Assembly (NCBI GenBank): GCA_025352985.1 | Contig: JANXRL010000171.1 | Location: 1 to 34,896 of the forward strand | DNA length: 34,896 nucleotides | Reading direction: 5' to 3' | Source of the DNA: Verrucomicrobiota bacterium | GTDB lineage: Bacteria > Verrucomicrobiota > Verrucomicrobiia > Opitutales > Opitutaceae | In this document: positions 8,408 through 32,438 of the stretch, in pieces | Layout of the letters: every line of letters begins with the position of its first letter | How positions within the stretch are numbered: the first letter of the stretch is position 1 | Translations under genes and position numbers: made by a program | The notes under the pieces: model-generated | Told to the model about the DNA's origin: nothing | Seen by the model: only the letters and a program-made list of their open reading frames with translations | Databases searched by the model: none

Positions 8408-9976
8408 TTACAAAAGATCTGCCGCGAGTTCTGCCAGCTTGGAACGTTCGCCCTTCGTGAGCTTCACATGGGCCGAGATCGCGTGGCCCTTCATACGGTT
8501 ATAGCAATAGACGAGGCCGTTGCTGCGTGAATCGACGTAGGGATTGTCGATCTGCGCCGGATCGCCGATGAGGACGATCTTCGAGCCTTCCGAAATGCGG
8601 GTGATGACCGTCTTCACCTCGTGCGGCGTGAGCTGCTGCGCTTCGTCGAGGATGAAGAAACGGCGGGCGATCGACCGGCCGCGGATGAAGCACAGCGCCT
8701 CGACCTCGACCAGACCGCTCTTGATGAGACGCTCGTAGGGTTTGATCGGCACCGCGCTGCCACCGTTACCGCCACCATGGTGATGATTACCGCCATTCGA
8801 ACTGTGGCTGGAAACCGATTCGTTACGCGACATCTCAAGCGCACTCGGTTTGTTTTTCTGCTGCTTCTTGGAAACTTTTTTCGAGGCGAACTGCGGCTCC
8901 TTTGACGGCTTCGAAGGCATGAGCACCTCAAGCGCATCGAAGTAAGGCTGAAGCCAAGGCTTCATTTTTTCTTCAAGCGTGCCGGGGAGGAACCCGATGT
9001 CCTTGCCGAGCGCGATGACCGGACGGGAGATCGAGAGGCCGTCGTAGAGCGAACGGTCATCGTGCGTCTGATGAAGCGCACAGCCGATGGAAAGCAGAGT
9101 CTTGCCTGTGCCCGCCTTTCCAAAGCAGGTCACGAGCGAGATCGAATCATCGAGCAGCGCGTCCATGAAGAACTGCTGCTCAAGATTACGCGCGCGGATC
9201 GAGATGCCACCGGGGGCCTTGATACTTTCGGGGATACGAAGGCGCTTCACCAAGCCTTCGCCATAGTAGCGAGCCGGCATCGTCTTACCTTCGTCGGAGC
9301 GCAGCAGGACGTATTCGTTGAGAAAAAGCGCGGCGGCCGCCTCCTTACCGATGTCGAACTCGCCTTCCGAACAGAAGCGCTGGATTTCGTAAATGGTGAC
9401 AGGAATCTCGCGGTAGGAATTCTCGTCGATCTCCTCGGGGACCTTGTCGTTGAGGTAGTCCTGCGCCTCGAGTCCGACCGCTCGCGCCTTGAGTGCTACG
9501 TTGACGTCCTTCGTCACGAGGATCGTGGGCGGCGAGTAGCGCTCCTGCACAAAAAGCGCGGATGCGATGATGCGGTTGTCCTTCTTCGAAAAATCGGAGA
9601 GGACCGCGCGCAGTTTCTGCATCAGGGGGGCGTCGCGCATCGCGGCGCTGTCCGCCATGTAAGGGTTGATGATGACGGAAAGCGTGCCGCCAGTTTCCAG
9701 CTTCACGCCCTCATGCATCGAACGAGAATCGGGCAAAAGCTCCGAGAGGATGCGGTGCACGCGGCGGGCGTTGCGGCCGCGCTCGGTGGACTGCTCGGTT
9801 TTGATGGCATCCAGTTCTTCCAAAACCTCGACCGGTATGGCCAGGTTGTTGTCCTCAAATTTAAAAATCGACTGCGGGTCGTGGAGGAGGACGTTGGTAT
9901 CCAGGACGAAGGTCTTCGCCTTTGCAGAGACCTTGAGCTGCGGTTTAGAGGCTTTGGCCTCGCTCAGGTGTTCCAT
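8408..9976 (-). CDS. phoH: PhoH family ATPase with N-terminal PIN domain (PhoH2-like)
   Basis: TFVLDTNVLLHDPQSIFKFEDN (PIN), GKAGTGKTLLSIGCALH (Walker A), RFFILDEAQQLTPHEVKTVITRISEGSKIVLIGDPAQIDNPYVDSRSNGL (PhoH). Confidence 0.95.
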   Translation of the reverse strand: MEHLSEAKASKPQLKVSAKAKTFVLDTNVLLHDPQSIFKFEDNNLAIPVEVLEELDAIKTEQSTERGRNARRVHRILSELLPDSRSMHEGVKLETGGTLSVIINPYMADSAAMRDAPLMQKLRAVLSDFSKKDNRIIASALFVQERYSPPTILVTKDVNVALKARAVGLEAQDYLNDKVPEEIDENSYREIPVTIYEIQRFCSEGEFDIGKEAAAALFLNEYVLLRSDEGKTMPARYYGEGLVKRLRIPESIKAPGGISIRARNLEQQFFMDALLDDSISLVTCFGKAGTGKTLLSIGCALHQTHDDRSLYDGLSISRPVIALGKDIGFLPGTLEEKMKPWLQPYFDALEVLMPSKPSKEPQFASKKVSKKQQKNKPSALEMSRNESVSSHSSNGGNHHHGGGNGGSAVPIKPYERLIKSGLVEVEALCFIRGRSIARRFFILDEAQQLTPHEVKTVITRISEGSKIVLIGDPAQIDNPYVDSRSNGLVYCYNRMKGHAISAHVKLTKGERSKLAELAADLL

Positions 9977-10081
9977 TTAGGGTGGTGAGTAACTTGTGAA
10001 TAGAGCCTGCACGCGGACGGGCTTTTGTCCATGCAAGAGTTGGGCCACTTTGATAAAAGTTACATGCCCGTCACCGTCGGC

Positions 10082-10405
10082 TCAGGCGTAGGGGCGCACC
10101 GGAGTGCCGTCCGCGGATTTTTGCTTTGCTTTCACTGGTGCCCAGACACGCAGGAGATATTCCGCCAGATTTCGCAGGCTGATCCGGCGCAGTCCTTCGC
10201 GTTGCGCAACTTCTCGAAACGGCGACGCCACCGCCGAACGTTCCTCATAATACCGCCATAACTCTTCCTCCAGCGTGATCGCCGCGCCGTGCGGATCAGT
10301 AGCCCGTGCGGAAATCGTGCCCACCTTGTCCTGCCAATGGCGTTTTTCGTCGGGATTCTGCTGCACGTAATCAAACATCATCTGTTCCGCGCGGTTCAGG
10401 CTCAT
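10082..10405 (-). CDS. Small conserved-hypothetical-type protein
   Basis: 107 aa ORF with plausible composition: MSLNRAEQMMFDYVQQNPDEKRHWQDKVG... Confidence 0.6.
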   Translation of the reverse strand: MSLNRAEQMMFDYVQQNPDEKRHWQDKVGTISARATDPHGAAITLEEELWRYYEERSAVASPFREVAQREGLRRISLRNLAEYLLRVWAPVKAKQKSADGTPVRPYA

Positions 10406-10520
10406 GGGTGCGACACCGTGCGCACGTCTCCGCGAAAAACAACCGAAAATCCCCGCGCCACGACGACATTGCTTTTGAACGGCATTCTTTTAGATTCAAA
10501 TCACTTCATCCATACTTTTC

Positions 10521-11339
10521 ATGTGGCAAAAACTTAAGGAACAATTCCCCGCCGTCCTCACGACCGTTATCCTCGTCGGCCTCGTCCTCGGCGCATACGT
10601 CAATTTCAAGGTCATCCCCGACCTCAACTCCGAACGCCAGCGCGAGATCGCCGATCTCAAGGAACAGCACAGCGCTGAACTTCAGGCCTCCGCCGAGCAG
10701 ACGCGGCGCCAGATCGAGGCCGTCAACACGCTTCTCAAGGACGCCATCGCCAAACGCTCCGCCGACGCTCTCATGACCGACGCGGAATTCGCCAAGGCCA
10801 ACGAATCCAAGGTCAACCAGCTCGCCGAAGCCATCGCGCAAAAAATCCAGCCCTTCAACCCGCTGCCCAAGACTCCGGAGGAAGCCGAGCGCCTGCAGAA
10901 CGAACAGGTGGACAAAGTTTCCAGCCGCCTCTCCGAAAAAATCCAGCCCATCCTCGCCGACATCGCCAAGGATCAGAATCTCACACGGGAGTCGCTCGCC
11001 ACCTACAGCCAGCGAATCGCCGATCAGGTCGGCTCCGTTCTTACCGCCGAACTCGCCAAGAACCAGATGCTCAACAACAACCTAGTCCAAGCCCATTCGG
11101 TCGCCGAACAATCCCTCGCCCTCTCACACGAGACTGTCGCCCTGTATCTGAGCTCCCTCAAGGAACAAGGCGTGCTCACCCGCATCCTCTCGTTGCCCGC
11201 CAACGTCATCAAGGACATCTCCAGCTTCAGCATCGTTAACAGCAGCGAGCGCAAAAAAAAGGAGCAGGAGCTCGTGGACAAAATGAACGCGATTCAGAAA
11301 CAGCTCGACGATATCCAAGCGGCCAGCCCCAAGAAATAA
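10521..11339 (+). CDS. Membrane-anchored coiled-coil protein
   Basis: N-terminal TM (VLTTVILVGLVLGAYVNF), extended coiled-coil; followed by a terminator. Confidence 0.8.
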   Translation: MWQKLKEQFPAVLTTVILVGLVLGAYVNFKVIPDLNSERQREIADLKEQHSAELQASAEQTRRQIEAVNTLLKDAIAKRSADALMTDAEFAKANESKVNQLAEAIAQKIQPFNPLPKTPEEAERLQNEQVDKVSSRLSEKIQPILADIAKDQNLTRESLATYSQRIADQVGSVLTAELAKNQMLNNNLVQAHSVAEQSLALSHETVALYLSSLKEQGVLTRILSLPANVIKDISSFSIVNSSERKKKEQELVDKMNAIQKQLDDIQAASPKK

Positions 11340-11363
11340 ATCCTTCTCTTTTGTTCTTTCTCG

Positions 11364-11398
11364 ACCACACCGCATCCCACGGCGTGGTTTTTTATTGT
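11364..11398 (+). terminator. Rho-independent-like terminator
   Basis: ACCACACCG-catccca-CGGCGTGGT then TTTTTATT. Confidence 0.75.
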
Positions 11399-11491
11399 CC
11401 GATCTCGATGCGGCGTATGGGAAACCCCTCCATTTGCAGATAAATTTTCCCAATAGCTGCCACGGGCACGCGTTCTGCTAAAATAAAGTTG

Positions 11492-11521
11492 GTAACACTT
11501 TTTACCATAATCGTAACACTT
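11492..11521. promoter_or_regulatory. Candidate operator GTAACACTT-N12-GTAACACTT
   Basis: Two exact GTAACACTT direct repeats with 21-nt start-to-start spacing, 10 bp before the ATG at 11531; same arrangement recurs at 18873-18902. Confidence 0.6.
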
Positions 11522-11530
11522 ATCCTCACC

Positions 11531-12505
11531 ATGCGCCTACGTAACCTGATTGTCCTCCTCGCGGTTGCCGCCACTTCCGCCGCCTCCGCCGCCCCTCTTA
11601 AAATCGCCTTTTCAGACTGGCCCGGCTGGACCGCCCTCGAAATCGCCGCCCAGAAGGGCTGGTTCAAGGAAGCCGGCGTTGATGTTGATCTCCTCTGGTT
11701 CGAATATGGCCCGTCCATGGAGGCTTTCACGGCGGGCAAGTGCGACGCCGTGACCGTCACCAACGGCGACGCCCTCGTCACCGGCGCCGGCGGCGCCAAA
11801 AACATCGCCGTCCTCATCACCGACTACTCCAACGGTAACGACATGATCGTCGGCCAGCCCGGCATCAAATCCATCAAGGACCTGAAGGGCAAAAAAGTCG
11901 GCATCGAGATCGGCTTCGTCGAACACCTCCTCCTTTTGAACGGCCTGAAGAAAGCCGGCATGGCCGAGTCCGACGTCACCCTTGTCCCCACGCCCACCAA
12001 CCAGACCCCGCAGGTGCTCGCCTCCGGTCAGGTTGACGCCATTGGCGCCTGGCAGCCCAATTGCGGCGCCGCCCTCAAGGCCGTCGCCGGCTCCAAGCCC
12101 GTTTACACCAGCGCCGACGCTCCCGGACTCATCTATGACGCCATCGTGGTCACACCCCAAAGCCTCGCCCAGCACCGCGCCGAGTGGGTAAAGGTTGTCA
12201 AAGTTTGGGACAAAATCGTCGCCTACCTCGCCGACCCGAAGACCCGCGAAGACGGCATCAAGATCATGGCCGCCCGCGCCGGCGTGGACCCGAAGGAATA
12301 CGCTGCGTTTATGCCCGGCACCCGCCTGCTCACCCTTGACGAAGGCGCCAAAGTCCTCACCACAAAAACAGACGGCCTCGATTCCGTCATCGGCTCCTCC
12401 AAGATTGCCAACGAGTTCAACGTGAAAAACGGCGTCTACAAAGAGTCACAGGACGTGGGCGGCTACCTCGACGCCTCCCTGACCGTTGACGCGCTGAAGA
12501 AGTAA
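11531..12505 (+). CDS. ABC transporter substrate-binding protein (NMT1/TauA-like)
   Basis: Signal peptide then APLKIAFSDWPGWTALEIAAQKGWFKEAGVDVDLLWFEYGPSMEAFTAGKCDAVTVTNGDAL; followed by permease and ATPase genes. Confidence 0.92.
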   Translation: MRLRNLIVLLAVAATSAASAAPLKIAFSDWPGWTALEIAAQKGWFKEAGVDVDLLWFEYGPSMEAFTAGKCDAVTVTNGDALVTGAGGAKNIAVLITDYSNGNDMIVGQPGIKSIKDLKGKKVGIEIGFVEHLLLLNGLKKAGMAESDVTLVPTPTNQTPQVLASGQVDAIGAWQPNCGAALKAVAGSKPVYTSADAPGLIYDAIVVTPQSLAQHRAEWVKVVKVWDKIVAYLADPKTREDGIKIMAARAGVDPKEYAAFMPGTRLLTLDEGAKVLTTKTDGLDSVIGSSKIANEFNVKNGVYKESQDVGGYLDASLTVDALKK

Positions 12506-12524
12506 GCTTTCGCCCACCCAACAC

Positions 12525-12557
12525 CGGGTGCGTTGGAACCCAACGCACCCGTTTTCT
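12525..12557 (+). terminator. Intra-operon hairpin / attenuator-like terminator
   Basis: Perfect 12-bp stem CGGGTGCGTTGG-aac-CCAACGCACCCG followed by TTTTCTT between SBP and permease genes. Confidence 0.75.
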
Positions 12558-12583
12558 TATCGCCCAGCTTTACGCAGGCTCTC

Positions 12584-13624
12584 ATGTCACGCCCACGCTG
12601 GTTCTCCGTCCGCCAAGAGCTGACCCCCAAGCGCAGCCGCTTTCTCGGCGTGCTCGCTTTCATGCTGCCGCTGGCGTTGTGGAGCCTGTTCAGCTACATA
12701 CCCTGGCTCTGGCACCCGATGGTCAAGGTGACCGACCCCGGAGACGTGGACTGGATGCGCGCCGGCCTGCTCATCAATCGCCACGACTTCGACAAGGAAG
12801 TCGCCACCGCCCAGCTCGCCCACACGCACGCTCCCGTAGGATTTCGCGCAAACCCCATTTATTTTCCCGCTCCCCACGCCGTCATCCGCTCGCTCTATAC
12901 CGCCTTCACCACCGCGCCCGTCCTGAAGGGTGACCTCTGGCTCCACCAAAGCCTCTGGATGAGTATCCAGACGATCTTCTGGGGCTTCACGATTTCGTCC
13001 GTCGTTGGCATTCCGCTCGGCATTCTCTGCGGCTCCTTCATCGCGATCTCGCGCCTCACCGAGCCGTTCGTCGATTTCGTCCGTTACATGCCGGCCCCCG
13101 CGTTCGGCGCGCTCATGGTCGCCATCTTCGGCATTCAACTCGAACCCAAGATCGCCATCATCGTCATCGGCACCTTTTTCCAGCAGGTCCTCGTCGTCGC
13201 CAACACCGTCCGCAAAGTGGATTGCGCCCTCATCGAGGCCGCTCAAACCCTCGGTTCCAAACGTCGCCAGCTCGTCCTGCGCGTCATCGTCCCTGCCAGC
13301 CTGCCCGACCTCTACAACGACACCCGCATACTCCTCGGCTGGGCTTGGACCTACCTCATAGTCGCCGAGGTCGTCGGCGTCAGCTCGGGCATTTCTTTTT
13401 TCATCAACCAGCAGGCCAAATATAGGAATTTCGACAACGTTTACGCCGCCATCATCATCATCGGAATCCTCGGCCTCACCATCGACCAGATCCTCGCCTT
13501 CGTCGGCCACCGCCTCTTCCCCTGGAAAAATCCGCGTCCCAGCCGCATCCGCGCCTTTCTCGGAAAACTCTTCGGCCTCCGTCCCGCCTCCGCCGAAAAA
13601 CCCGTGCAACTCCTCCCGCAATGA
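12584..13624 (+). CDS. ABC transporter permease (TauC/SsuC-like)
   Basis: BPD-type motif region [45 protein letters not shown]. Confidence 0.92.
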
Positions 13625-14517
13625 GCGAGCCCCTTCCCGATTACCGCGACCAATCCCCCGCCGTCGCCGCCCGCTTTGCGAAAATCAAGGAGCGCCCCGT
13701 CGTCCTCGAAATTGATCGCCTAGGCCGCCAGTTCCCAGGCGAACACGGCCCCGTCGTGGCGCTGCGCGACATCTCTTTCAAAGTCCACCGCCGCGAATTC
13801 GTCTGCGTCATCGGCCCCTCCGGGTGCGGCAAGTCCACCCTCATCCGCATCATCGCCGGCCTCGACGAACCTACCTCCGGCCGCATGCTCGTGGACGGCA
13901 AGGAAACCAGCGGCCCCTGCCCCGAGCGCGGCATGGTTTTCCAAGGCTACACCCTCTTCCCGTGGCTCACGGTGAAAAAGAACGTCATGTTCGGCCTCAA
14001 GATGCAGGGCATGGACGGTGGCCAGGCGGATCGCGAGGCCCGCCAGTGGATCGACCTCGTCGGCCTCACGCGCTTCGCCGATACCTACCCCGCGCAACTC
14101 TCCGGCGGCATGAAGCAACGCACCGCTATCGCCCGCGCCCTCGCCGCCAACCCACGCGTCCTTCTCATGGACGAACCCTTCGGCGCCCTCGACGCCCAGA
14201 CCCGCGCCCAGATGCAGTCCCATCTCCTCGAAATCTGGCGCAACGTGGACGTCACCATCCTCTTCATCACCCACGATCTCGACGAAGCCATTTTCCTCGC
14301 CGACCGCATCCTCGTCCTCAAAGCCCACCCCGGCGAAGTCCAAGAGGTGATCGAGGTGCCTGTCCCGCGCCCCCGCAACCTCTCCCAGCTCAACTCACCC
14401 GAGTTCCTCGCCACCCGCCGCCGCCTCGAAGAACTCATCCACCCGCGCGTCGATGCTCACGCTCACGAACACCTGCCCATCATCCGTCTCACCCAAGCCG
14501 GCGACGACGTGGAATAA
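13621..14517 (+). CDS. ABC transporter ATP-binding protein (TauB/SsuB-like)
   Basis: [16 protein letters not shown] (Walker A), [32 protein letters not shown] (signature, Walker B); overlaps permease stop by 4 bp. Confidence 0.96.
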
Positions 14518-14528
14518 CCTGCCTTGAT

Positions 14529-14550
14529 GTAGGAGCCCGTTTACGGGCGA
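14529..14550. repeat. REP-like element GTAGGAG-CCCGTTTACGGGCGA
   Basis: GTAGGAG plus CCCGT-TT-ACGGG hairpin, intergenic. Confidence 0.55.
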
Positions 14551-14568
14551 TTACCCTTACGACCACTT

Positions 14569-15366
14569 ATGCCGCCCGCCAAGAAATCGAAAGCCCCCGT
14601 TCTCTGGAGCCGCTTAACCTGGCCCGAGATCGCCGCGCTTCCGTCCGACGGCATGGATGCCGTCATGCTCCCCTGCGGCGCGACCGAACAACACGGCCCG
14701 CACCTCGGCACCGGCATGGACACCTCGCTCGCCACCCACGTCTGCGCCGCCGTCTCCGCCGCGACCGGCGTGCCCGTTCTTCCCGCACTTTCCTACGGCT
14801 GTTCCCTCGGCCACTCCCACCGCTGGCCCGGCACGCTCGCCCTCCAACCCCAGACCCTCATCGCCCTCGTTACCGACCTTGGCGACTGGCTTTTTCGCGC
14901 CGGTTTTCGCCGCCTCTTTCTCGTCAACAGCCACGTCACCAACGCCGCCCCGCTCCGCTGCGCCCTCGAAATCCTCCGCAGCCGCCACGACGGCTTCATG
15001 GTCGCCGTCCTCAACACCGCCGAAGTCAGCCCCCGCGTGAAAAAAGCCTTCTGCGCCGACGCCGCCGACTGGCACGCCAACCAAGCCGAGACCGCCCTCA
15101 TGCTCGCGCTCGCCCCTGAGCTCACACGCCCGTCCCTCCTCTCCACTTCCGACGACCCCGACCGCACCACCGGTCTCGTCTTCGCCCATCCCGTCAACCG
15201 CACCAGCGCCAACGGCGTGACCGGCACGCCCTCCCGCGCCACCGCCGCCCAAGGCCACCGCCTCTTCCGCTGGATCGTCGCCGACCTCGCCAAAACCGTC
15301 CGCCGCGCCCTCCGCGAAAACCCTCCTCTCCCGCACGCTTACTCCGTCCCCGCTTCCGTTTCCTGA
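14569..15366 (+). CDS. Creatininase-family amidohydrolase
   Basis: [50 protein letters not shown] (variant creatininase motifs retaining the putative E/H/D metal ligands). Confidence 0.85.
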
Positions 15367-15384
15367 TTTCCAGCTTTCCACATT
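15359..15384 (+). repeat. 26-bp dispersed repeat (inverted copy at 20396-20421)
   Basis: TTTCCTGATTTCCAGCTTTCCACATT is the exact reverse complement of AATGTGGAAAGCTGGAAATCAGGAAA at 20396. Confidence 0.85.
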
Positions 15385-15395
15385 AAAAAATTCCC

Positions 15396-16760
15396 ATGAA
15401 ACCTGATACCGAAATCCTCGCTCTCCAAGCCGACCTCAAAGCCAAAGGCGTCAAATACGTCGTCGGCGCCTACCCCGACATCCACGGCGTCCCCAAGGGC
15501 AAATTCGTCCCCATCGACCATTTCGCCCACTTCGCCCACGGCTCCGAACTCTACACCGGCTACGCCCTCGACGGCCTCGGCCAGTCCCCCAACGACGACG
15601 AGATCGCCTCCGTCCCCGACCTCGACCGCGGCATCATTCTCCCCTGGAACAAACAGGTCGCCTGGTTCCCCGCCGACAACACCTTTCACGGCCAACCCTA
15701 CGACATCAGCACCCGCGTCGCGTTGAAAAACGTCCTCGCCGACGCCGCCTCTCTCGGCTTCGGCTTCAACCTTGGCATCGAGTGCGAAGTTTACGTCGTC
15801 AAACTCGGCGCCGACGGCAAATCCCTCTCCATCCCCAACCCCGACGACCGCCTCAATAAGGCCTGCTACGACATCCAGGGCTTCATGGACCGCTTCCCTT
15901 GGCTCGACAAGGTTTCCACCGCCATCAACGACCTCGGCTGGGACCTCTACTCCCTCGACCACGAGGACGCCAACAGCCAGTTCGAGTTCGATTTCAACTA
16001 CAGCGACGCCCTCACCATGTGCGACCGCTACGTCTTCTTCCGCACCATGGCCCGCCATTACGCCGCCGAGGAAGGCCTGCTCGCCACCTTCATGCCAAAA
16101 CCCTTCGCCGACAAAACCGGCAACGGCGCGCACTTCAACATGTCCCTCTCCGACCTGAAGACCGGCGCCAACGCCTTCAAGTGCGACCCCAAGGACGACC
16201 CCCGCGGCCTCGGCCTCACGCCCGTCGCCTACTCCTTCATCGCCGGCATCCTCCGCCACGGCCCCGCCCTCTGCGCCGCCTTCGCCCCCACCGTCAACAG
16301 CTACAAGCGCCTCGTCCGCCGCGGCCTCATGAGCTACTACTCCTGGGCGCCCGTCTTCAACAGCTTCGGCACCAACAACCGCACCAACTCCATCCGCGTC
16401 CCCATGGGCGGCGGCCGCTGCGAAAGCCGCAACGCCGACTCCGCCTGCAACCCCTACCTCGCCGCCACCCTCGCCCTCGCCGCCGGCCTCGAAGGCATCC
16501 GCGAAAACCTCGACCCCGGCTCGCCGCAGGAGGACAACCTCTACGAACTCCCCGAAGCCGAACTCGCCCGCCGCGGCATCAGCTACCTCCCGCAGACCTT
16601 GCAGGAAGCTGTAGCCGCCTTCGCCGCCGACCCGTTCATCACCAAAACCCTCGGCCAGGGCCTGCGCGACGAATTCGTCACCTACAAATCCGAAGAGTGG
16701 CGCCAATACCACCAGCAGGTCAGCGCCTGGGAAATCGACCGCTACGCCCGCATGTTCTGA
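15396..16760 (+). CDS. glnT: Glutamine synthetase family protein, GlnT / type III-like
   Basis: [64 protein letters not shown]. Confidence 0.88.
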
Positions 16761-16770
16761 TACGGGCTTC

Positions 16771-16804
16771 CCTCTGCGCCGATCTGTGTAATCTGTGGTG
16801 AAAA
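16771..16804 (-). repeat. CACAGATTACACAGAT-type dispersed repeat
   Basis: Minus strand reads TTCACCACAGATTACACAGATCGGCGCAGAGG, with a tandem ACACAGAT-like unit; intergenic. Confidence 0.4.
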
Positions 16805-16812
16805 CTTCGACC

Positions 16813-17253
16813 ATGCCCGTTTCCCCCAAAAAAGAACGTCTGGCCCGCTTCAGCGTCTCGCTTCCCGAGAGCCTGCTCGACGAACTTGACACGATGGTGG
16901 ACCGCCGCGGTTACAAGAGCCGCTCCCACGCCGTCGCTGCCTTAGCCCGCGACGGCCTGGTGGACTACGCAAGCCAGCTCGGCACCGAGTCGGTCGCGGG
17001 CACCATCAGCCTCGTTTACGATTACACCAAGAAAGGCCTCCAGGCCCGCCTCGCTGCCATCCAGCACAAGTATTACCTGCTCGTTGTCTCCAGCATGCAC
17101 GTCCACCTTGAGCATCACAACTACCTCGAAATCCTCCTCGTGCAGGGCAAGGCCAGCGAACTCCAGAAGCTCACCGACGAACTCGTCACATGCCGCGGTG
17201 TAAAAAACGGTAAGCTCAACCTCACCGCCACGTCCATCCCGCCGCTGCTCTGA
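16813..17253 (+). CDS. NikR-like ribbon-helix-helix regulator lacking the canonical Cys ligand
   Basis: RFSVSLPESLLDELDTMVDRRGYKSRSHAVAALARDGLVD (RHH) plus ACT-like domain QHKYYLLVVSSMHVHLEHHNYLEILLVQG...RGVKNGKL. Confidence 0.9.
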   Translation: MPVSPKKERLARFSVSLPESLLDELDTMVDRRGYKSRSHAVAALARDGLVDYASQLGTESVAGTISLVYDYTKKGLQARLAAIQHKYYLLVVSSMHVHLEHHNYLEILLVQGKASELQKLTDELVTCRGVKNGKLNLTATSIPPLL

Positions 17254-17351: not shown

Positions 17352-18002
17352 ATGTCTCGCCGCAATCCCCGTTTACTGGCCTCCTCAATTGCAGTCGTCG
17401 CCGCGGCCGGCTTCGTCTGGTATTTCTGGCCCGCCGCTCCCCGAAGCCAGCCCGCTCCGGCACCACGCACCGCTTTGCACCAGCCCGATCAAACGCCGCC
17501 GAAACCGACAGTCTCGCCGTCGGTTGCCGTCGCCCCAAACCCCGCGACCACAGGATCGCTCACGGCTCCCAAAAAGGAAACCGAACCCGCGATCGATTCC
17601 ATTTTGCGGGACACGTCGCTCGATAACATCGGCGCCGCCCGCGCTCTCGGCGGCTTGGTTCAGGACTCTTCGCTCAGCCTCGACGCCCGCGCCGAGGCCC
17701 TTGCCCACATGCTTAATTTATCCGTAAACAACGAAACCTCGCTGCTTCTCCCGCTCGTCCAGTCCCGCGACCTCCCCGACTCGCTCGCCAGCACGATACT
17801 CAGCGATGCGCTCAACGGTCCGCTTACCTGGCAGGCGGATGCGTGCCTGGCCGTCATGGCTCGCACGACGGGAAAAGAGCTTCGCACCCAGGCCAGCGAA
17901 CACCTCGTGTTCCTAACCGGAGAAGACCACGGCGACGACATCAACGGCTGGACGCTCGCCGTGCGAAACACGCGCGCGAAGTGGGACGCCGCCGGACAGT
18001 AA
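17352..18002 (+). CDS. Membrane-anchored hypothetical protein
   Basis: N-terminal TM (LLASSIAVVAAAGFVWYFW), Pro-rich linker, helical C-terminal domain. Confidence 0.7.
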   Translation: MSRRNPRLLASSIAVVAAAGFVWYFWPAAPRSQPAPAPRTALHQPDQTPPKPTVSPSVAVAPNPATTGSLTAPKKETEPAIDSILRDTSLDNIGAARALGGLVQDSSLSLDARAEALAHMLNLSVNNETSLLLPLVQSRDLPDSLASTILSDALNGPLTWQADACLAVMARTTGKELRTQASEHLVFLTGEDHGDDINGWTLAVRNTRAKWDAAGQ

Positions 18003-18194: not shown

Positions 18195-18689
18195 TTACGG
18201 TATCGCCGGACCGGTGAAAATCACGTTGCCGGATTGAATCGAGCCGGTCGCCGGAACGGTTTTGACCGGCGGGACCGAGAAGAAGCCGCGCCCAAATTGG
18301 TTGGCCAAAGTCGGCGAGGGCAATTGGAGCAACACACCTTCAAGGGTCACCTTGCGACCGTCCGTCAAAATAAAGCTGCCCGAGAATAAGCCAGTCCTAG
18401 GAGTAATCGTGACCGCGAACTTCCTGTCGTTCGTAGGATTTACCCGAACCTGAACCTGTGGCCACAAAACGGTGTCAACAAAATTAGAGTCAGCCCCTAT
18501 GGCGGTAAAATCAGTCGTGCCGACCACAGTGATGACGTAAATGCCACCTTTGGAGATTGAGCCGACAGACAGTGCGACGGGACTACCCGTTATCACTGCG
18601 GCTTTGGCAAAATCGTCATTGCTGGGAGACACCGCCCAAACAGGCGAACTCATTAAAACAAAACTCAGAACCGCTAAGAGGTATTTCAT
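18195..18689 (-). CDS. Secreted protein of unknown function
   Basis: Signal peptide MKYLLAVLSFVLMSSPVWA followed by VSPSNDDFAKAAVITG and GGIYVITVVGTTDFTAIGADSN. Confidence 0.7.
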   Translation of the reverse strand: MKYLLAVLSFVLMSSPVWAVSPSNDDFAKAAVITGSPVALSVGSISKGGIYVITVVGTTDFTAIGADSNFVDTVLWPQVQVRVNPTNDRKFAVTITPRTGLFSGSFILTDGRKVTLEGVLLQLPSPTLANQFGRGFFSVPPVKTVPATGSIQSGNVIFTGPAIP

Positions 18690-18872
18690 AGGACAAAAAA
18701 TTCAGGGGGGAAATCGGAAATCGGGAAAATCGCCATTGGGAAACGCACAGGAAAAGCAACATCACAGAACCTTAGCCCTCAATTTTAGTCAGAGACACCA
18801 AAACCATCCCATAAAACCAGTGATCATCACCTTCCAAACGCCTCGCATCACCCGCTTGGCACCGATCTTGCA

Positions 18873-18902
18873 ATAACACGTTTTATACATTTCGTAACAC
18901 TT
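18873..18902. promoter_or_regulatory. Candidate operator ATAACAC-N14-GTAACACTT
   Basis: Same 21-nt half-site spacing and same right half-site as 11492-11521; 18 bp before the ATG at 18921. Confidence 0.6.
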
Positions 18903-18920
18903 TTATCGCTTTTCCTCGCC

Positions 18921-19724
18921 ATGCCTCCCCTAGTCCCGCCCGCCCCGTCCGGCACCTCCTTCACCACTCAACGCCCGACCGGTCTCCCGCCAACCCCACC
19001 CGTCGCCATTCCCACCGACCTCCTCCTCCATGAAGAAACCCTTCCCGGCGGCGCCGGCTGGTCTGCCACCGTAAAACGCGGCCAGTCTCTCCGCCTCACT
19101 GCACTCGAAGCCCGGGCCAACGTCTCCTTGATCTGCTTCAACCGGCACAATCCGGTGGATCGCTACAACATGGCTGACACCCTCAAAGGCCAGCACACCG
19201 CCAAGCTCACCACCGGCTACATCTTGGTCTCCGACATGGGCCGTGCGATGTTCTCCGTCACCGGTGACACCCTCGGCTGGCACGATCCCCTCGGCGGCCA
19301 CGATACTGCCGCCATCGTCCGCAAAAAATGGGGCGATAAAAACTACCAGACCGCCCGTAACGCCTGGCATCGCAACAGCCGAGACCACTTTCTCATCGAG
19401 CTCACCAAGCACGGCCTCGGCTCCCGCGACCTCGTCGCCAACGTCAATTTTTTCAGCAAAGTCTCCGCCGACGCCGAGGGCCGCCTTCACTTCCACCCCG
19501 ACCACGCCAAGCCCGGTGATTTCGTCGATCTGCGCGCCGAGATGGATCTCTTCGTGATCCTCACGACCTGCCACCACCCGCTCGACAACGCGCCCGCCTA
19601 CGACCCAAAGCCGGTGCAACTCCAGCTCTGGCGTTCGCCTCCCGCCGCAGTTGACGACTACTGCCGCACCTACCGCCCCGAAAACGAGCGCGCCTTCTAC
19701 AACGCCGAGCTTCTCTACCGCTGA
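18921..19724 (+). CDS. DUF1989 urea-carboxylase-associated protein (carboxyguanidine deiminase subunit type)
   Basis: LFHEETLPGGAGWSATVKRGQSLRLTALEARANVSLICFN...GWHDPLGGHD; paired with a second DUF1989 gene and upstream of the carboxylase. Confidence 0.88.
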   Translation: MPPLVPPAPSGTSFTTQRPTGLPPTPPVAIPTDLLLHEETLPGGAGWSATVKRGQSLRLTALEARANVSLICFNRHNPVDRYNMADTLKGQHTAKLTTGYILVSDMGRAMFSVTGDTLGWHDPLGGHDTAAIVRKKWGDKNYQTARNAWHRNSRDHFLIELTKHGLGSRDLVANVNFFSKVSADAEGRLHFHPDHAKPGDFVDLRAEMDLFVILTTCHHPLDNAPAYDPKPVQLQLWRSPPAAVDDYCRTYRPENERAFYNAELLYR

Positions 19725-19727
19725 GTC

Positions 19728-20387
19728 ATGAGCACCCTCATCTACACCGAAAGCCCGCTCGCCCCCGCCGCCGCGACCTACCGCCACGTCATCCCCGCCG
19801 GCGATTTCTGGATGCACGAAATCAAACGCGGCCAAACTCTCCGCATCGTGGACCTCGAAGGCAACCAAGCCGCCGACACCCTCTTCTACAACGCCGCCGA
19901 TTTCCGCGAACGTTACAGCGCGCAGGACACCATCCGCGAACAAGCCGCCCTCTACCTCACCACCGGCACCAAGCTCCTCTCCAACGAGTGCAACGTTCTC
20001 GCCGTGATCACCGCCGACACCTGCGGCCGCCACGACACCCTCGGCGGCGCCTGCGCCTGCGAAAGCAACGCCGTCCGCTACGGCCACGGCACGAAACACA
20101 TGCACTCGTGCCGCCAGAGTTTTCTCCTCGGCCTCGCCACCTGGCCCCACGCCCCTTTCGACCTCAACAAACGCGACATCCCCGCGAACATTAATTTCTT
20201 CATGAACGTCCCCGTCACGCCCGAAGGCGGCCTCAAGTTCGAAGACGGCGTCAGCGCCGGCGGCAAGTATGTCGAGATGCGCGCCGAGATGGACCTCGTC
20301 TGCCTCATCTCAAACTGCCCCCAGCTCAACAACCCCTGCAACGGCTACAACCCCACCCCCGTCGAAGTCCTCATCTGGAACCCTTGA
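19728..20387 (+). CDS. DUF1989 urea-carboxylase-associated protein (carboxyguanidine deiminase subunit type)
   Basis: [37 protein letters not shown]...[21 protein letters not shown]. Confidence 0.9.
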
Positions 20388-20395
20388 ATTCCATG

Positions 20396-20421
20396 AATGT
20401 GGAAAGCTGGAAATCAGGAAA
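20396..20421 (-). repeat. 26-bp dispersed repeat (inverted copy of 15359-15384)
   Basis: AATGTGGAAAGCTGGAAATCAGGAAA. Confidence 0.85.
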
Positions 20422-20433
20422 ACTCCTTCGACT

Positions 20434-20473
20434 CCGTTTCCAACTTTCCAGCTTTCCCTATTAAAAATTTCCC
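20434..20473 (+). repeat. Diverged third copy of the 26-bp repeat forming a hairpin with 20396-20421
   Basis: CCGTTTCCAACTTTCCAGCTTTCCCTATTAAAAATTTCCC versus CCGTTTCCTGATTTCCAGCTTTCCACATTAAAAAATTCCC at 15356. Confidence 0.75.
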
Positions 20474-20486
20474 GTTTCCGCGTCCC

Positions 20487-23400
20487 ATGTTCTCAAAAGT
20501 CCTGATCGCCAACCGCGGCGCCATCGCCTGCCGCGTCATCCGCACCCTGCGCAAAATGGGCATCGCCAGCGTCGCCGTTTACTCCGACGCCGACCGCCAC
20601 AGCCTCCACGTCTCCCAAGCCGACGAAGCCATCCCCATCGGCTCCAGTCCCGCCGCGCAAAGCTACCTCGACGCCGACAAAATCCTCGCCGCCGCGAAAC
20701 AGACCGGCGCCCAAGCCATCCACCCCGGCTACGGCTTCCTCTCCGAAAACGCCGCCTTCGTCGAAGCCTGCGAAGCCGCCGGCATCGCCTTCATCGGCCC
20801 CCGCGCCGCCCAGATGCGCCAGCTCGGCCCCAAACACTCTGCCCGCGCCCTCGCCAAAGCCCACGGCGTCCCCCTCCTCCCCGGCACCGACCTCCTCCCC
20901 GACCTCGCCACCGCCCAGCGCGAAGCCGCCCGCATCGGCTACCCCGTCATGCTCAAGAGCACCGGCGGCGGCGGCGGCATTGGCATGTCCCTCATCCGTA
21001 AACCCGCCGAACTCGCCCCTGCCTTCGAGTCCGTCGTCCGCCTCGCCAAAAACAACTTCAAGGACGGCGGCGTCTTCCTCGAAAAATTCGTCGAACACGC
21101 CCGCCACATCGAAGTCCAGATCCTCGGCGACTCCCACGGCCGCGTCGTCGCCCTCGGCGAACGCGACTGCTCCGTCCAGCGCCGAAACCAAAAGGTCGTC
21201 GAAGAAACCCCCGCCCCCGGCCTCACCCCCGCCCAACGCGCCGAACTTCTCGCCTGCGCCGCCCGCCTTGGCACCGTCGCCGCCTACACCAACGCCGGCA
21301 CCGTCGAATTCGTTTACGACAACGCCACCGGCCATTTCTACTTCCTCGAAGTCAACACCCGCCTCCAAGTCGAACACGGCGTCACCGAAGAAGTCACCGG
21401 CGTGGACCTCGTCGAGTGGATGATCCGCGCCGCCGCCGGCGAACTCGACCTCCGCGACTACGTTCCCTCCGCCACCGGTGCCTCCATCCAGGTCCGCCTC
21501 TACGCCGAAGACGCCGGCAAAGCCTTCCAACCCGCCGCCGGCACCCTCACCGACGTCCACTTTCCTTCCTCCGCGCGCATCGAGACCTGGGTCGAGACCG
21601 GCAGCGAAGTCTCCGCCTTCTACGATCCGATGATCGCCAAGATCATCGTCCGCGGCACCGACCGTGCCGACGCCCTCGCCCGCCTCGACTCCGCCCTTGC
21701 CGACACCCGCGTTTACGGCCTCGAAACTAACCTCCCCTACCTCCGCCAGATCATCGCCAGCGAGGGCTTTCGTATCGGCTCCGTCACCACGAAATACCTC
21801 TCCACGCTCCCCTTCGTTCCCTCCACAATCGAAGTCCTCGAAGGCGGCACCCAAACGACCGTTCAAGACTACCCCGGCCGCATCGGCTACTGGGACGTCG
21901 GCGTCCCGCCCTCCGGCCCGATGGACAACGTGTCCTTCCGCCTCGCCAATCGCCTCGTCGGCAACCCCGACACCGCCGCCTCCCTCGAACTCACCGTCAG
22001 CGGCCCGTCCCTCCGCTTCAACACCGCCGCCGTCGTCGCCCTCACCGGCGCGCACATGCCCGCGACGCTCGACAACAAACCCGTCGCCCAACACCGCGCC
22101 ATCCGCGTCCGCGCCGGCCAGACTCTCCGCATCGGCTCCATCGACGGCCCCGGCCTCCGCGCCTACCTTGCCATCCGCCACGGCCTAGACGTGCCCGACT
22201 ACCTCGGCAGCAAATCCACCTTCACCCTCGGCCTCTTCGGCGGGCACTCCGGCCGCGCCCTCCGCACCGGCGACGTCCTCCGCGTCCACACCTCCACGCC
22301 CGCCGGCGTCCTCACGTCCGCCCCTCTCCTCCGCGCCCCCGCCTCGATCCAGCCTCCACTCACCCGCGAATGGCAGATCGGCGTCCTCTACGGCCCGCAC
22401 GGCGCGCCCGAATTCTTCACCGAGGCCGACATCTCCGTCCTCCTCTCCACCGCCTACGAAGTCCACTACAACTCCGCCCGCACCGGCGTCCGTCTGATCG
22501 GACCCAAGCCAGAGTGGGCCCGCCGCGACGGTGGCGAAGCCGGCCTGCATCCCTCCAACATCCACGACAACGCCTACGCCATCGGCGCCGTCGATTTCAC
22601 CGGCGACATGCCGATCATCCTCGGTCCCGACGGCCCCAGCTGCGGCGGCTTCGTGTGTCCGTTTACGATCGTGCAAGCCGAGCTCTGGAAAATGGGCCAG
22701 CTCAAGCCCGGCGACAAAGTCCGCTTCACCGCGTTGACCGCCCAACACGCCCGCGAACTCGCCTTCGCTCAGGAATCCGAAATCGAAACCCTCAAGCGCG
22801 TCTCCAAGCCTGTTTGTCACTTATTAAGTGACAAACCTCCGGAGCCCGCCGTCCTCCATTCTCTTCCCGCTCGCCCCACCGCACCCGCCGTCGTTTACCG
22901 CCGCCAAGGCGACGCCAACCTCCTCATCGAATACGGTCCGCTCCAGCTCGACATCGCCATGCGCATGCGCGTCCACGCGCTGAAAACCTGGCTCGAACGC
23001 CACAAGGTCTCAGGGCTCATCGACCTCACCCCGGGCATCCGTTCACTCCAAGTCCACTTCGACTACCACCTCCTCCCGATGGAACGCCTCCTCGAAATTC
23101 TTCTCCGCGCCGAGAGTGAGCTCCCCGCCATCGACGACATCGAGGTCCCCTCCCGCATCGTTCACCTGCCGCTTTCGTGGGAAGACGAGTCCACCCTCCT
23201 AGCCATCCGCAAATACATGCAGATCGTCCGCAAGGACGCCCCGTGGTGCCCGAGCAACATCGAATTCATCCGCCGCATCAACGGCCTCGACTCGATCGAC
23301 GACGTCCACCGCATCGCCTTCGAGGCAAGCTACCTCGTCATGGCCCTCGGCGACGTCTACCTGGGCGCGCCCGTCGCCACACCCGTCGATCCCCGCCACC

Positions 23401-24098
23401 GCCTCGTCACCACGAAGTATAACCCCGCCCGCACTTGGACCCCCGAAAACGCCGTCGGCATTGGCGGCGCCTACCTTTGCGTTTACGGCATGGAAGGCCC
23501 CGGCGGCTACCAGTTCATCGGCCGCACCTGCCAGATGTGGAACCGCTACAAACAGACCGCCGACTTCACCGACGGAAAACCCTGGCTCCTCCGCTTCTTC
23601 GACCAAATCCGTTTCTATCCCGTCACCAACGCCGAGCTCACGAAATTCCGCGAAGATTTCCCGCAGGGAAAAGTAAAACTCCGCATCGAGGAAACCACCT
23701 TCCGCCTACGCGACTACCAAAAGTTCCTCGCCGACCACGAAGCGACCACCACGTCCGCCAAGGCCCGCCAGCAATCCTCCTTCGAAGCCGAGCGCAAACG
23801 CTGGGAAGACAGCGGCCAGCTCAACTTCTCAGCCAGCGAAGAGACCGCCGCCTCCGGCGACGAATCCGCCATCCCCGAGGGCTGCGTTGCGCTCCCCGCG
23901 CATATCCCCGGCAACGTCTGGAAAATCCTGGTCGAGCCCGGCGCGAATGTCGCCGAGGGACAGCCGCTCGTGATCCTCGAATCCATGAAAATGGAGGTTA
24001 CCGTCACCGCCACCCGCGCCGGTGTCATCCGCGAAGTCCGCTGCGCCGAAGGCCGCCCTGTCAACGCCGGCGAAACCCTCATCGTCCTAGAAGGCTGA
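20487..24098 (+). CDS. Biotin-dependent urea/guanidine carboxylase
   Basis: Biotin carboxylase (MFSKVLIANRGAIACRVIRTLRKMG, GGGGIGMS), KipA- and KipI-like domains, C-terminal biotinyl motif ESMKMEV. Confidence 0.95.
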   Translation: MFSKVLIANRGAIACRVIRTLRKMGIASVAVYSDADRHSLHVSQADEAIPIGSSPAAQSYLDADKILAAAKQTGAQAIHPGYGFLSENAAFVEACEAAGIAFIGPRAAQMRQLGPKHSARALAKAHGVPLLPGTDLLPDLATAQREAARIGYPVMLKSTGGGGGIGMSLIRKPAELAPAFESVVRLAKNNFKDGGVFLEKFVEHARHIEVQILGDSHGRVVALGERDCSVQRRNQKVVEETPAPGLTPAQRAELLACAARLGTVAAYTNAGTVEFVYDNATGHFYFLEVNTRLQVEHGVTEEVTGVDLVEWMIRAAAGELDLRDYVPSATGASIQVRLYAEDAGKAFQPAAGTLTDVHFPSSARIETWVETGSEVSAFYDPMIAKIIVRGTDRADALARLDSALADTRVYGLETNLPYLRQIIASEGFRIGSVTTKYLSTLPFVPSTIEVLEGGTQTTVQDYPGRIGYWDVGVPPSGPMDNVSFRLANRLVGNPDTAASLELTVSGPSLRFNTAAVVALTGAHMPATLDNKPVAQHRAIRVRAGQTLRIGSIDGPGLRAYLAIRHGLDVPDYLGSKSTFTLGLFGGHSGRALRTGDVLRVHTSTPAGVLTSAPLLRAPASIQPPLTREWQIGVLYGPHGAPEFFTEADISVLLSTAYEVHYNSARTGVRLIGPKPEWARRDGGEAGLHPSNIHDNAYAIGAVDFTGDMPIILGPDGPSCGGFVCPFTIVQAELWKMGQLKPGDKVRFTALTAQHARELAFAQESEIETLKRVSKPVCHLLSDKPPEPAVLHSLPARPTAPAVVYRRQGDANLLIEYGPLQLDIAMRMRVHALKTWLERHKVSGLIDLTPGIRSLQVHFDYHLLPMERLLEILLRAESELPAIDDIEVPSRIVHLPLSWEDESTLLAIRKYMQIVRKDAPWCPSNIEFIRRINGLDSIDDVHRIAFEASYLVMALGDVYLGAPVATPVDPRHRLVTTKYNPARTWTPENAVGIGGAYLCVYGMEGPGGYQFIGRTCQMWNRYKQTADFTDGKPWLLRFFDQIRFYPVTNAELTKFREDFPQGKVKLRIEETTFRLRDYQKFLADHEATTTSAKARQQSSFEAERKRWEDSGQLNFSASEETAASGDESAIPEGCVALPAHIPGNVWKILVEPGANVAEGQPLVILESMKMEVTVTATRAGVIREVRCAEGRPVNAGETLIVLEG
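22812..22836. repeat. Palindromic element inside the carboxylase CDS
   Basis: GTTTGTCACTTA-T-TAAGTGACAAAC, perfect 12-bp arms; encodes CHLLSDK. Confidence 0.9.
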
Positions 24099-24104
24099 GT
24101 TCGC

Positions 24105-25799
24105 ATGACCACCACGCCCGACCCCGTCTGGATTCACCGGCTCACCCCCGAAGAAAAAACGCGCCTCACGCCCTCACCCCAAACGGGCGCGCTCGCCGGC
24201 CTCGCCTTCGCCATCAAGGACAACATCGACCTTGCCGGCATCCCCACCACCGCCGCCTGCCCGGGCTTCGCCTACACACCCGCCTCCTCCGCCCACGTGG
24301 TCGAACGCCTGATCGCCGGCGGCGCGATTCCCGAAGGCAAAACCAACCTCGACCAGTTCGCCACCGGCCTCGTCGGCACCCGCTCGCCCTACGGCGTGCC
24401 GCGCAACGTTTTCAACCCCGCCTACATTTCCGGCGGCTCGTCGAGCGGCTCGGCTGTGGCCGTCGCCTCCGGGCTGGTCGATTTCGCGCTCGGCACCGAC
24501 ACCGCCGGTTCCGGCCGCGTGCCCGCCGCCTTCAACGGCCTCATCGGCCTCAAGCCCACCAAAGGCCTCCTCTCCACGCGCGGCGTCATCCCCGCCTGCC
24601 GCAGCCTCGACTGCGTCTCCGTCTTCGCGCGCGATATCGCCACCGCCGCCCGCGTTCTCGCCGTCACCGAAGGCTTCGACCCACTCGACCCCTTCTCCCG
24701 CGCCCGACCCATTTGTCACTTAATAAGTGACAAAATTTCCGACCCTCATCGCATCGGCGTCCCCCGCGCCGACCAACTCGAATGGTTTGGAAACACCGAG
24801 TCCCCCGCCCTCTTCGCCGCCGCCCTCGACCACCTGCGCACCCTCGGCATCAAAATTACAGAAGTCGATTTCTCCCCGTTCCTCGACGCCGCCCGCCTGC
24901 TCTACGAAGGCCCTTGGACCGCCGAGCGCTACGCCGCCGTCGGCGAGTTCATCGAAAAACACTCCACCACGCCCGAGGCCGCCTGTGCCGCCGGACTCGA
25001 TCCGACCGTCGCCCAAATCATCCTCGGCGGCAAAACTCCCTCGGCCGCCGATTGCTTCCGCGCCACCTATCGCCTCGCCGAGCTCCGCCGCGCCACCGAC
25101 ACCATCCTCGCCACCGTGGACGCGCTCGTCGCGCCTACCGCCGGCACGATCTACACCGTCGCCGAAATCGCCACCGACCCGATCCGCCTCAACTCGAATC
25201 TCGGCCGCTACAACAATTTCATGAACTTGCTCGACCTGTGCGGCCTCACGTTGCCCGCCGGTCGCTACACCTACGGCCCCGGCTTCGGCATCACCCTCAT
25301 CGCCCCCGCCTGGCACGACTCCGTCATCCTCACCCTAGGAGCCCGCTACCTTTCGGGACCCGCCCCTGCCGCCGCCAAGCCTCCCGCCGACTGGATCACG
25401 CTCGCCGTCTGCGGAGCCCACCTGCGCGGACAACCTTTGCACTCACAACTCACCTCGCTCGGCGCGCAGTTCCTCGCCTCCACAACCACCGCGCCACGCT
25501 ACCGCCTATACGCCCTCGCCCACACCACCCCGCCCAAGCCCGGTCTCGCCCGCGTCGCCGTAGGCGAAAGTGGCGGCGCCTCTATTGCCGTGGAAACCTA
25601 CGCCCTCACGCCGGAAGCCTTCGGGCGTTTCGTCGCTGCCGTGCCCGCGCCCATGGCCATCGGAACCGCCGAGCTGGCGGACGGCACTTGGGTCAAAAGT
25701 TTTCTTTGCGAGCCTTTCGCCTTGGCGGGCGCGCTCGATATCACCACCCACGGCGGCTGGGTTGCCTATCGCGCCCGTCTGACACCGGCGATTCCCTAG
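24105..25799 (+). CDS. atzF: Allophanate hydrolase (amidase-signature)
   Basis: FAIKDNIDLAGIPTTAACPGFAY, YISGGSSSGSAVAVASG, GTDTAGSGRVPAAFNGLIGLKPTKG; C-terminal allophanate-hydrolase-type domain. Confidence 0.94.
   Translation: MTTTPDPVWIHRLTPEEKTRLTPSPQTGALAGLAFAIKDNIDLAGIPTTAACPGFAYTPASSAHVVERLIAGGAIPEGKTNLDQFATGLVGTRSPYGVPRNVFNPAYISGGSSSGSAVAVASGLVDFALGTDTAGSGRVPAAFNGLIGLKPTKGLLSTRGVIPACRSLDCVSVFARDIATAARVLAVTEGFDPLDPFSRARPICHLISDKISDPHRIGVPRADQLEWFGNTESPALFAAALDHLRTLGIKITEVDFSPFLDAARLLYEGPWTAERYAAVGEFIEKHSTTPEAACAAGLDPTVAQIILGGKTPSAADCFRATYRLAELRRATDTILATVDALVAPTAGTIYTVAEIATDPIRLNSNLGRYNNFMNLLDLCGLTLPAGRYTYGPGFGITLIAPAWHDSVILTLGARYLSGPAPAAAKPPADWITLAVCGAHLRGQPLHSQLTSLGAQFLASTTTAPRYRLYALAHTTPPKPGLARVAVGESGGASIAVETYALTPEAFGRFVAAVPAPMAIGTAELADGTWVKSFLCEPFALAGALDITTHGGWVAYRARLTPAIP
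24712..24734. repeat. Palindromic element inside the allophanate hydrolase CDS
   Basis: TTTGTCACTTA-A-TAAGTGACAAA, exact reverse complement of 22813-22835; encodes CHLISDK. Confidence 0.9.
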
Positions 25800-32016: not shown

Positions 32017-32149
32017 GGGTGTCTGCTTTTGTCTAAGGCAAGAGCAGGCACCCGCCCCGTTAGCACGGGGAAAGGCGGCTACTCTCACGCTTCATTTTTG
32101 CGATGAAGGGAATGCCACCGGAACGCGCAATCGCACCGATGGACGTGAG

Positions 32150-32385
32150 CCTTCGCAGGACCGGATGTTCGGACTCCGCATATGTCATCGTGTCGAAAGA
32201 AAGCGCCAAAGCGTTTCCTTCGCGACGTCCTCGCCCCTCGCCTTCACCGGGGAGAGAGCCCCGATTGGCTTTGGCCCGCGCGCCTTCAAGCGCGGACTGT
32301 GGGTCTGGTTTGATGCGTTACCGCAGCGCAACTGTGGCCGGCTTTCACGGCCTTCCCCGTTTCCGCAAAGTTAAAAAAGAACGAC
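32150..32385 (-). ncRNA. Cobalamin riboswitch (candidate)
   Basis: Minus strand contains GGGGAAGGCCGTGAAAGCCGGCCACAGTTGCGCTGCGGTAACGC ... CGATGACATATGCGGAGTCCGAACATCCGGTCCTGCG, matching the core and B12-box layout of cobalamin riboswitches; boundaries approximate. Confidence 0.85.
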
Positions 32386-32438
32386 AGGCGCGCGCACCCT
32401 GCTCCGCGCCTCCGCCCAAATCAAGACCTAATCTAAAA

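Follow-up and report, generated by a model that had tools for sequence, protein, structure and literature searches.

The locus analyzed here raises the question of which protein reads an element shared by two neighbouring operons, and in response to which signal. The window, i.e. the whole stretch of 34,896 nucleotides that was analyzed, belongs to an Opitutaceae (Verrucomicrobiota) MAG, and its relevant features are listed in Table 1. A preliminary description had reported a motif shared by the regions before a transporter operon and a DUF1989-carboxylase operon, in two copies with the same half-site spacing, each close to an ATG and with no other copy in the window. It had also pointed to a NikR-like gene lying between the two operons.

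Table 1. Genes, predicted promoters and putative operators of the two operons (window coordinates).
Feature	Coordinates	Strand	Remarks
Predicted sigma-54 promoter, transporter operon	11465..11479	+	GGCACGCGTTCTGCT; -24 GG, -12 GC; predicted +1 near 11490
Putative operator 1	11492..11519	+	GTAACAC-N14-GTAACAC; ~+3 to +30 of predicted transcript
ABC transporter substrate-binding protein (NMT1/SsuA-like)	11531..12505	+	Predicted guanidine importer subunit; operon position conserved
ABC transporter permease	12584..13624	+	
ABC transporter ATPase	13621..14517	+	
Creatininase-family amidohydrolase	14569..15366	+	Optional operon member
Type III glutamine synthetase (GS)	15396..16760	+	TIGR03105 603.9 bits; optional operon member
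NikR-like RHH + NikR_C regulator	16813..17253	+	Three nickel-ligand His kept; Cys95 -> Tyr
Predicted sigma-54 promoter abutting operator 2	18856..18872	+	TTGGCACCGATCTTGCA; predicted +1 near 18883
Putative operator 2	18873..18900	+	ATAACAC-N14-GTAACAC; ~-10 to +18 of predicted promoter
UAAP1 (DUF1989; CgdA/B-type carboxyguanidine deiminase subunit)	18921..19724	+	TIGR03425 331 bits; PF09347
UAAP2 (DUF1989), second deiminase subunit	19728..20387	+	TIGR03424 330 bits
Biotin-dependent 'urea carboxylase', predicted guanidine carboxylase	20487..24098	+	Asp703 vs Asn in fungal urea amidolyase
Allophanate hydrolase	24105..25799	+	TIGR02713 731 bits

The shared motif before both operons is real. The two sequences were found at 11492-11521 and 18873-18902, with an identical half-site spacing of 21 nt, and stop 9 and 18 nt short of the ATGs at 11531 and 18921, respectively. 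A search of the window for RTAACAC-N14-GTAACACTT allowing up to three mismatches gave exactly two matches (chance expectation 0.04), and RTAACAC-N14-GTAACAC was present only at 11492-11519 and 18873-18900, so that this part of the preliminary description held. Across the 2.88-Mb assembly of the same organism, no perfect RTAAYAC-N14-GTAAYAC was found beyond the window pair and one mismatch added only three scattered matches; no wider regulon was seen. Comparison with relatives set the conserved core as GTAAYAC-N14-GTAAYAC. Two further proposals failed in that comparison: inverted symmetry of the RTAA-N6-TTAY type occurs in the first half-site of both window copies but was not conserved, and neither was GTAACACTT as a 9-mer half-site, its trailing TT being peculiar to the window copies.

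Lack of conservation before orthologous operons had been named as the result that would refute a common regulatory site; footprinting was run, and the motif was conserved. The sample comprised 150 genomes of the family, of which 23 carry a close ortholog of the NikR-like protein (≥55% identity) and 127 do not. Strict GTAACAC-N14-GTAACAC was present in 16 of the 23 genomes with the ortholog and in none of the 127 others (Fisher p = 1.8e-16, a value that overstates independence because the genomes are related), while 7 of these 23 clade-A genomes had relaxed variants only. Twenty-one of the 22 strict copies were located directly before the transporter or the UAAP1 operon, and the remaining one (G117:C32) at a contig end, the adjoining contig starting inside the transporter gene. 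When the half-site was relaxed to GTAWYAC and a match defined as at least 13 of 14 positions at gap 14, sites were detected upstream of the transporter in 23/25 cases and upstream of UAAP1 in 22/27 cases in clade A, as well as upstream of all nine clade B transporters. The same relaxed half-site gave essentially no matches in control upstream regions (permease, GS and carboxylase/UC genes), and essentially nothing at gaps other than 14. Spacers are rich in A+T; their sequence varies, while their length stays at 14 nt.

Overall, the site is conserved before orthologous operons in approximately 20 genera and its distribution tracks the regulator gene. It was still present where the transporter lies 1.6 Mb away from the regulator (G046), and where the UAAP1 operon and the regulator are on different contigs (G097 and G035). 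In G075, G023 and G024, the UAAP1 site has degenerated or disappeared. In a genome with UAAP1 loci in which no regulator gene was found (G036, 80% complete), the motif was also absent. Distant class-level relatives (L157-L164, L166 and L167) retained the operon along with a regulator lacking the nickel Cys, but showed no site matching the pattern used; it is possible that their operator has changed.

The orientation of the half-sites varied among relatives. Clade A sites are mostly direct (GTAACAC/GTAACAC), as are both window sites, and some are inverted (GTATTAC-N14-GTAATAC); the predominant form at clade B transporters is GTAATAC/GTATTAC. The invariant frame across sites is GT-N3-AC at 21-bp spacing. 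Since a ribbon-helix-helix (RHH) dimer is two-fold symmetric and this frame is palindromic, direct, inverted and everted orders are all possible, and either half-site orientation would be tolerated, which is an inference. Three clade B loci (L146, L147 and L148) have an extra palindromic GTATTAC-N14-GTAATAC just before the regulator gene, suggestive of autoregulation.

Directly before each window copy there is a -24/-12 box of the sigma-54 type, which the preliminary description had overlooked. Both boxes fit the GG-N10-GC spacing, and transcription from them is inferred. Among relatives, a GGYRY-N6-TGC box was found before 24/24 non-redundant clade-A transporter sites, 9/9 clade-B sites and 15/25 clade-A UAAP1 sites (in 14 cases ending at a distance of exactly 1 nt from the left half-site), with a shuffling expectation of 0.04-0.15 (0.15 for clade-A transporter sites); no sigma-54 box could be recognized at the other 10 UAAP1 sites. 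The rpoN gene is present in the same genome, split across two contig ends. No NtrC-like enhancer palindromes were detected with a simple pattern in the 350 nt upstream of either operon. Because a protein bound at these sites would obstruct the sigma-54 polymerase, and sigma-54 activators act from far upstream, repression is the likely mode of action; that the regulator is a repressor is thus inferred from site position, with no expression data.

The protein encoded between the operons belongs by fold to the NikR family but fails the nickel-site test. It matched PF01402 (RHH) and PF08753 (NikR_C, ACT-like), both above cut-off, NF003381 (145.6 bits, cut-off 105) and PDB 2bj1 (E 1.5e-32), and retains the base-contacting strand R-x-S-x-S, while the TIGR02793 nikR equivalog was not met (104 vs 175.45). 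Of the nickel site formed by His76, His87, His89 and Cys95 (E. coli numbers), Cys95 is replaced by Tyr, as in every member of clade A, where the three nickel-ligand His are kept. Clade B has Thr, Ile, Val, Ser and similar residues at that position and has lost H76 and usually H89 too; Cys95 is absent from all operon-linked relatives examined. The operon-linked proteins formed a single clade (support 96/90), apart from NikRs with the full His3-Cys site, in a tree based on few columns and with weak inner forks; one member of this clade, L005, comes from a short contig with only a GS gene beside the regulator. Nor is the window regulator linked to nickel transport or to nickel enzymes, urease being encoded elsewhere in the genome; the guanidine operons hold transporter, GS, UAAP and carboxylase genes, and none for nickel transport. 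A nickel ligand is missing throughout the relatives examined, which makes nickel an unlikely signal. Nickel independence is therefore a likely inference, yet metal sensing is not excluded, given the three His kept in clade A.

Regarding the function of the operons, UAAP1, UAAP2, the biotin carboxylase and allophanate hydrolase occur all together in the window, each above its NCBIfam cut-off. Gene order in relatives is SBP-permease-ATPase-(creatininase-GS)-NikR-like-UAAP1-UAAP2-carboxylase-allophanate hydrolase. Asp703 of the window carboxylase aligns with Asn1330 (N1330) of fungal urea amidolyase, and Asp was found at this column in 56/56 carboxylases of relatives read there and in three Proteobacterial carboxylases from operons with Guanidine-I riboswitches. 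According to a published active-site rule, Asp indicates guanidine and Asn urea specificity (PMC12186494). We take position 703 to correspond to the Asp/Asn position of that rule, an assignment with which the alignment data agree. Based on Asp703 and the rule, the annotated 'urea carboxylase' is predicted to be a guanidine carboxylase.

Some observations on gene neighborhood and assembly can be added. The regulator and UAAP1 are adjacent in most relatives and approximately 1.6 kb apart in the window, where the interval holds two small ORFs (17352-18002, plus strand; 18195-18689, minus strand), neither of which matched Pfam. Between locus L002 (JANYJB010000102.1) and the window (positions 9001-17253 and 18866-25766 compared), identity is 95-100% for the transporter, creatininase and GS proteins but drops sharply to 81% for the regulator and 70% for UAAP1, a step for which recombination or a chimeric MAG are possible explanations. 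In four genomes (G013, G064, G083 and G029), the contig with the guanidine operon also encodes urease alpha, only a few kb away. Farther downstream in the window, a cobalamin riboswitch (RF00174, 35.1 bits, 32142-32416, minus strand) precedes a TonB-dependent receptor gene (29998-32088, minus strand), probably encoding a B12 receptor.

Control of the window operons by a guanidine or other riboswitch was rejected. No guanidine riboswitch was found in the window or in 16 related loci, and the operator region gave no Rfam match of any kind up to E = 1. Such control is common for the guanidine carboxylase pathway without being required. Guanidine-I was not found in the 150 family genomes either, in a search that was not exhaustive, only the best 23 candidates per genome being scored. 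Proteobacterial counterpart operons have Guanidine-I/II riboswitches and lack the NikR-like gene. A 2025 review lists riboswitches as the only known guanidine receptors besides transporters and enzymes, states that transcription factors binding guanidine are not yet known, and suggests that such regulators may yet be found (PMC12186494). Nothing linking NikR with urea carboxylase or guanidine was found in the literature searched.

Taken together, the two 28-bp elements are likely operators through which a NikR paralog, repurposed and probably no longer dependent on nickel, controls guanidine uptake and breakdown, where binding, repression, nickel independence and the effector are all inferred. 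The NikR-like protein encoded between the operons would bind both elements as a tetramer, with one RHH dimer on each GTAAYAC; the spacing of 21 bp, or two turns, would put both dimers on the same face of the DNA. The operators would overlap the sigma-54 promoters or sit just downstream of them (centre ~+4 to +20), and binding of the protein would keep polymerase from opening or leaving the promoter. Nitrogen limitation would activate transcription via sigma-54 and an enhancer-binding partner, while a pathway compound would lift repression. Guanidine is the most economical guess for this compound, although considered alone it falls slightly short of being the expected answer. The bolder reading, that a NikR paralog, having lost its nickel site, evolved into a protein that senses guanidine or a pathway intermediate and fills in Verrucomicrobiota the role of riboswitches elsewhere, should likewise be held only tentatively. 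If true, it would provide a dedicated guanidine-responsive transcription factor, of the kind listed as not yet known in that review, and a metal sensor seemingly turned to a new signal; the locus is in any case a concrete, widespread and testable candidate for a guanidine-binding regulator, with operators defined base by base.

Three alternatives were considered. The one that survives best, albeit unlikely, is that the regulator has remained a sensor of nickel or another metal and shuts down a carboxylase pathway that needs no nickel whenever there is enough nickel for urease to function; repression along these lines has been suggested for a nickel-free hydrogenase of Desulfovibrio (PMC545781). 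In its favor are the three His kept in clade A, the presence of urease in 32/34 genomes with the regulator vs. 25/116 others, and the absence of a second NikR-family gene from every Opitutaceae genome searched. Against it, Cys95 is Tyr throughout clade A, clade B has lost H76 and usually H89 as well despite having the same operons and operator type, the carboxylase is of the guanidine type and no nickel-free urease substitute, and nickel transport genes are missing from these operons. A second, very unlikely alternative is that another transcription factor, e.g. a nitrogen regulator, binds the motif and the NikR-like gene is merely a neighbor. Given the apparent sigma-54 dependence of both promoters, a nitrogen regulator is probably involved as well, and co-occurrence alone cannot separate a regulator from its operon. 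However, half-site and gap equal those of nickel-type nikR sites of the same phylum and of the delta-proteobacterial NikR signal (PMC545781), sigma-54 enhancer proteins bind far upstream rather than at -10 to +30, and L146, L147 and L148 have their palindromic site right before the NikR-like gene. Finally, an RNA motif in the mRNA leader, to which the location within ~60 nt of the start codon and, in the transporter operon, downstream of the promoter would point, is all but excluded, since the left half at the UAAP1 promoter (-10 to -4) precedes the predicted start and would stay untranscribed, no Rfam match appeared at any E up to 1, and the spacer varies freely in sequence at a fixed length.

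The preferred reading, a repurposed NikR paralog acting on DNA operators, can be compared with known systems. E. coli NikR and its operator GTATGAT-N14-ATCATAC share fold, tetramer logic and 21-bp centre spacing with the window (PMC545781), and differ in half-site sequence, orientation, nickel dependence and regulon. With the delta-proteobacterial signal, GTGTTAC-[N13/14]-GTAACAC (PMC545781, where everted sites are described for Desulfotalea), the window shares the GTAACAC half-site, the 20-21 bp half-site spacing, the proximity to the regulated start codon and the RHH-NikR_C regulator; those operators are inverted and serve nickel transport, and the window has direct repeats, guanidine uptake and breakdown genes and sigma-54 promoters. 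The resemblance to this signal pointed out in the preliminary description held for half-site and gap; the orientation is direct in both window sites. A shared site for the NikR-like protein is supported by conservation, regulator co-occurrence and this NikR-type half-site and gap, without binding data. Within Verrucomicrobiota, nikR genes whose products have the complete His-His-His-Cys site are directly preceded by GTGTTAC-N14-GTAACAC or a close variant at 12/16 loci, and CbiM-PDGLE transport components were found in the three checked operons carrying a transporter. These NikR-nikMNQO-type loci (L137-L140 and L171-L180) share with the window the phylum, a homologous regulator (~42-51% identity), the half-site and exactly N14, and differ in their full His3-Cys nickel site, inverted left half and downstream CbiM-PDGLE genes. 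One regulator family therefore re-uses one half-site in direct, inverted or everted order at a fixed 21-bp spacing. As for gene content, the closest counterparts are the riboswitch-controlled guanidine carboxylase operons (PMC12186494, PMC12508155), which likewise comprise an ABC importer, UAAP1/2 (CgdA/B), an Asp carboxylase and allophanate hydrolase; they are controlled by RNA and have no NikR-like gene, whereas the window has no riboswitch and a putative protein operator instead.
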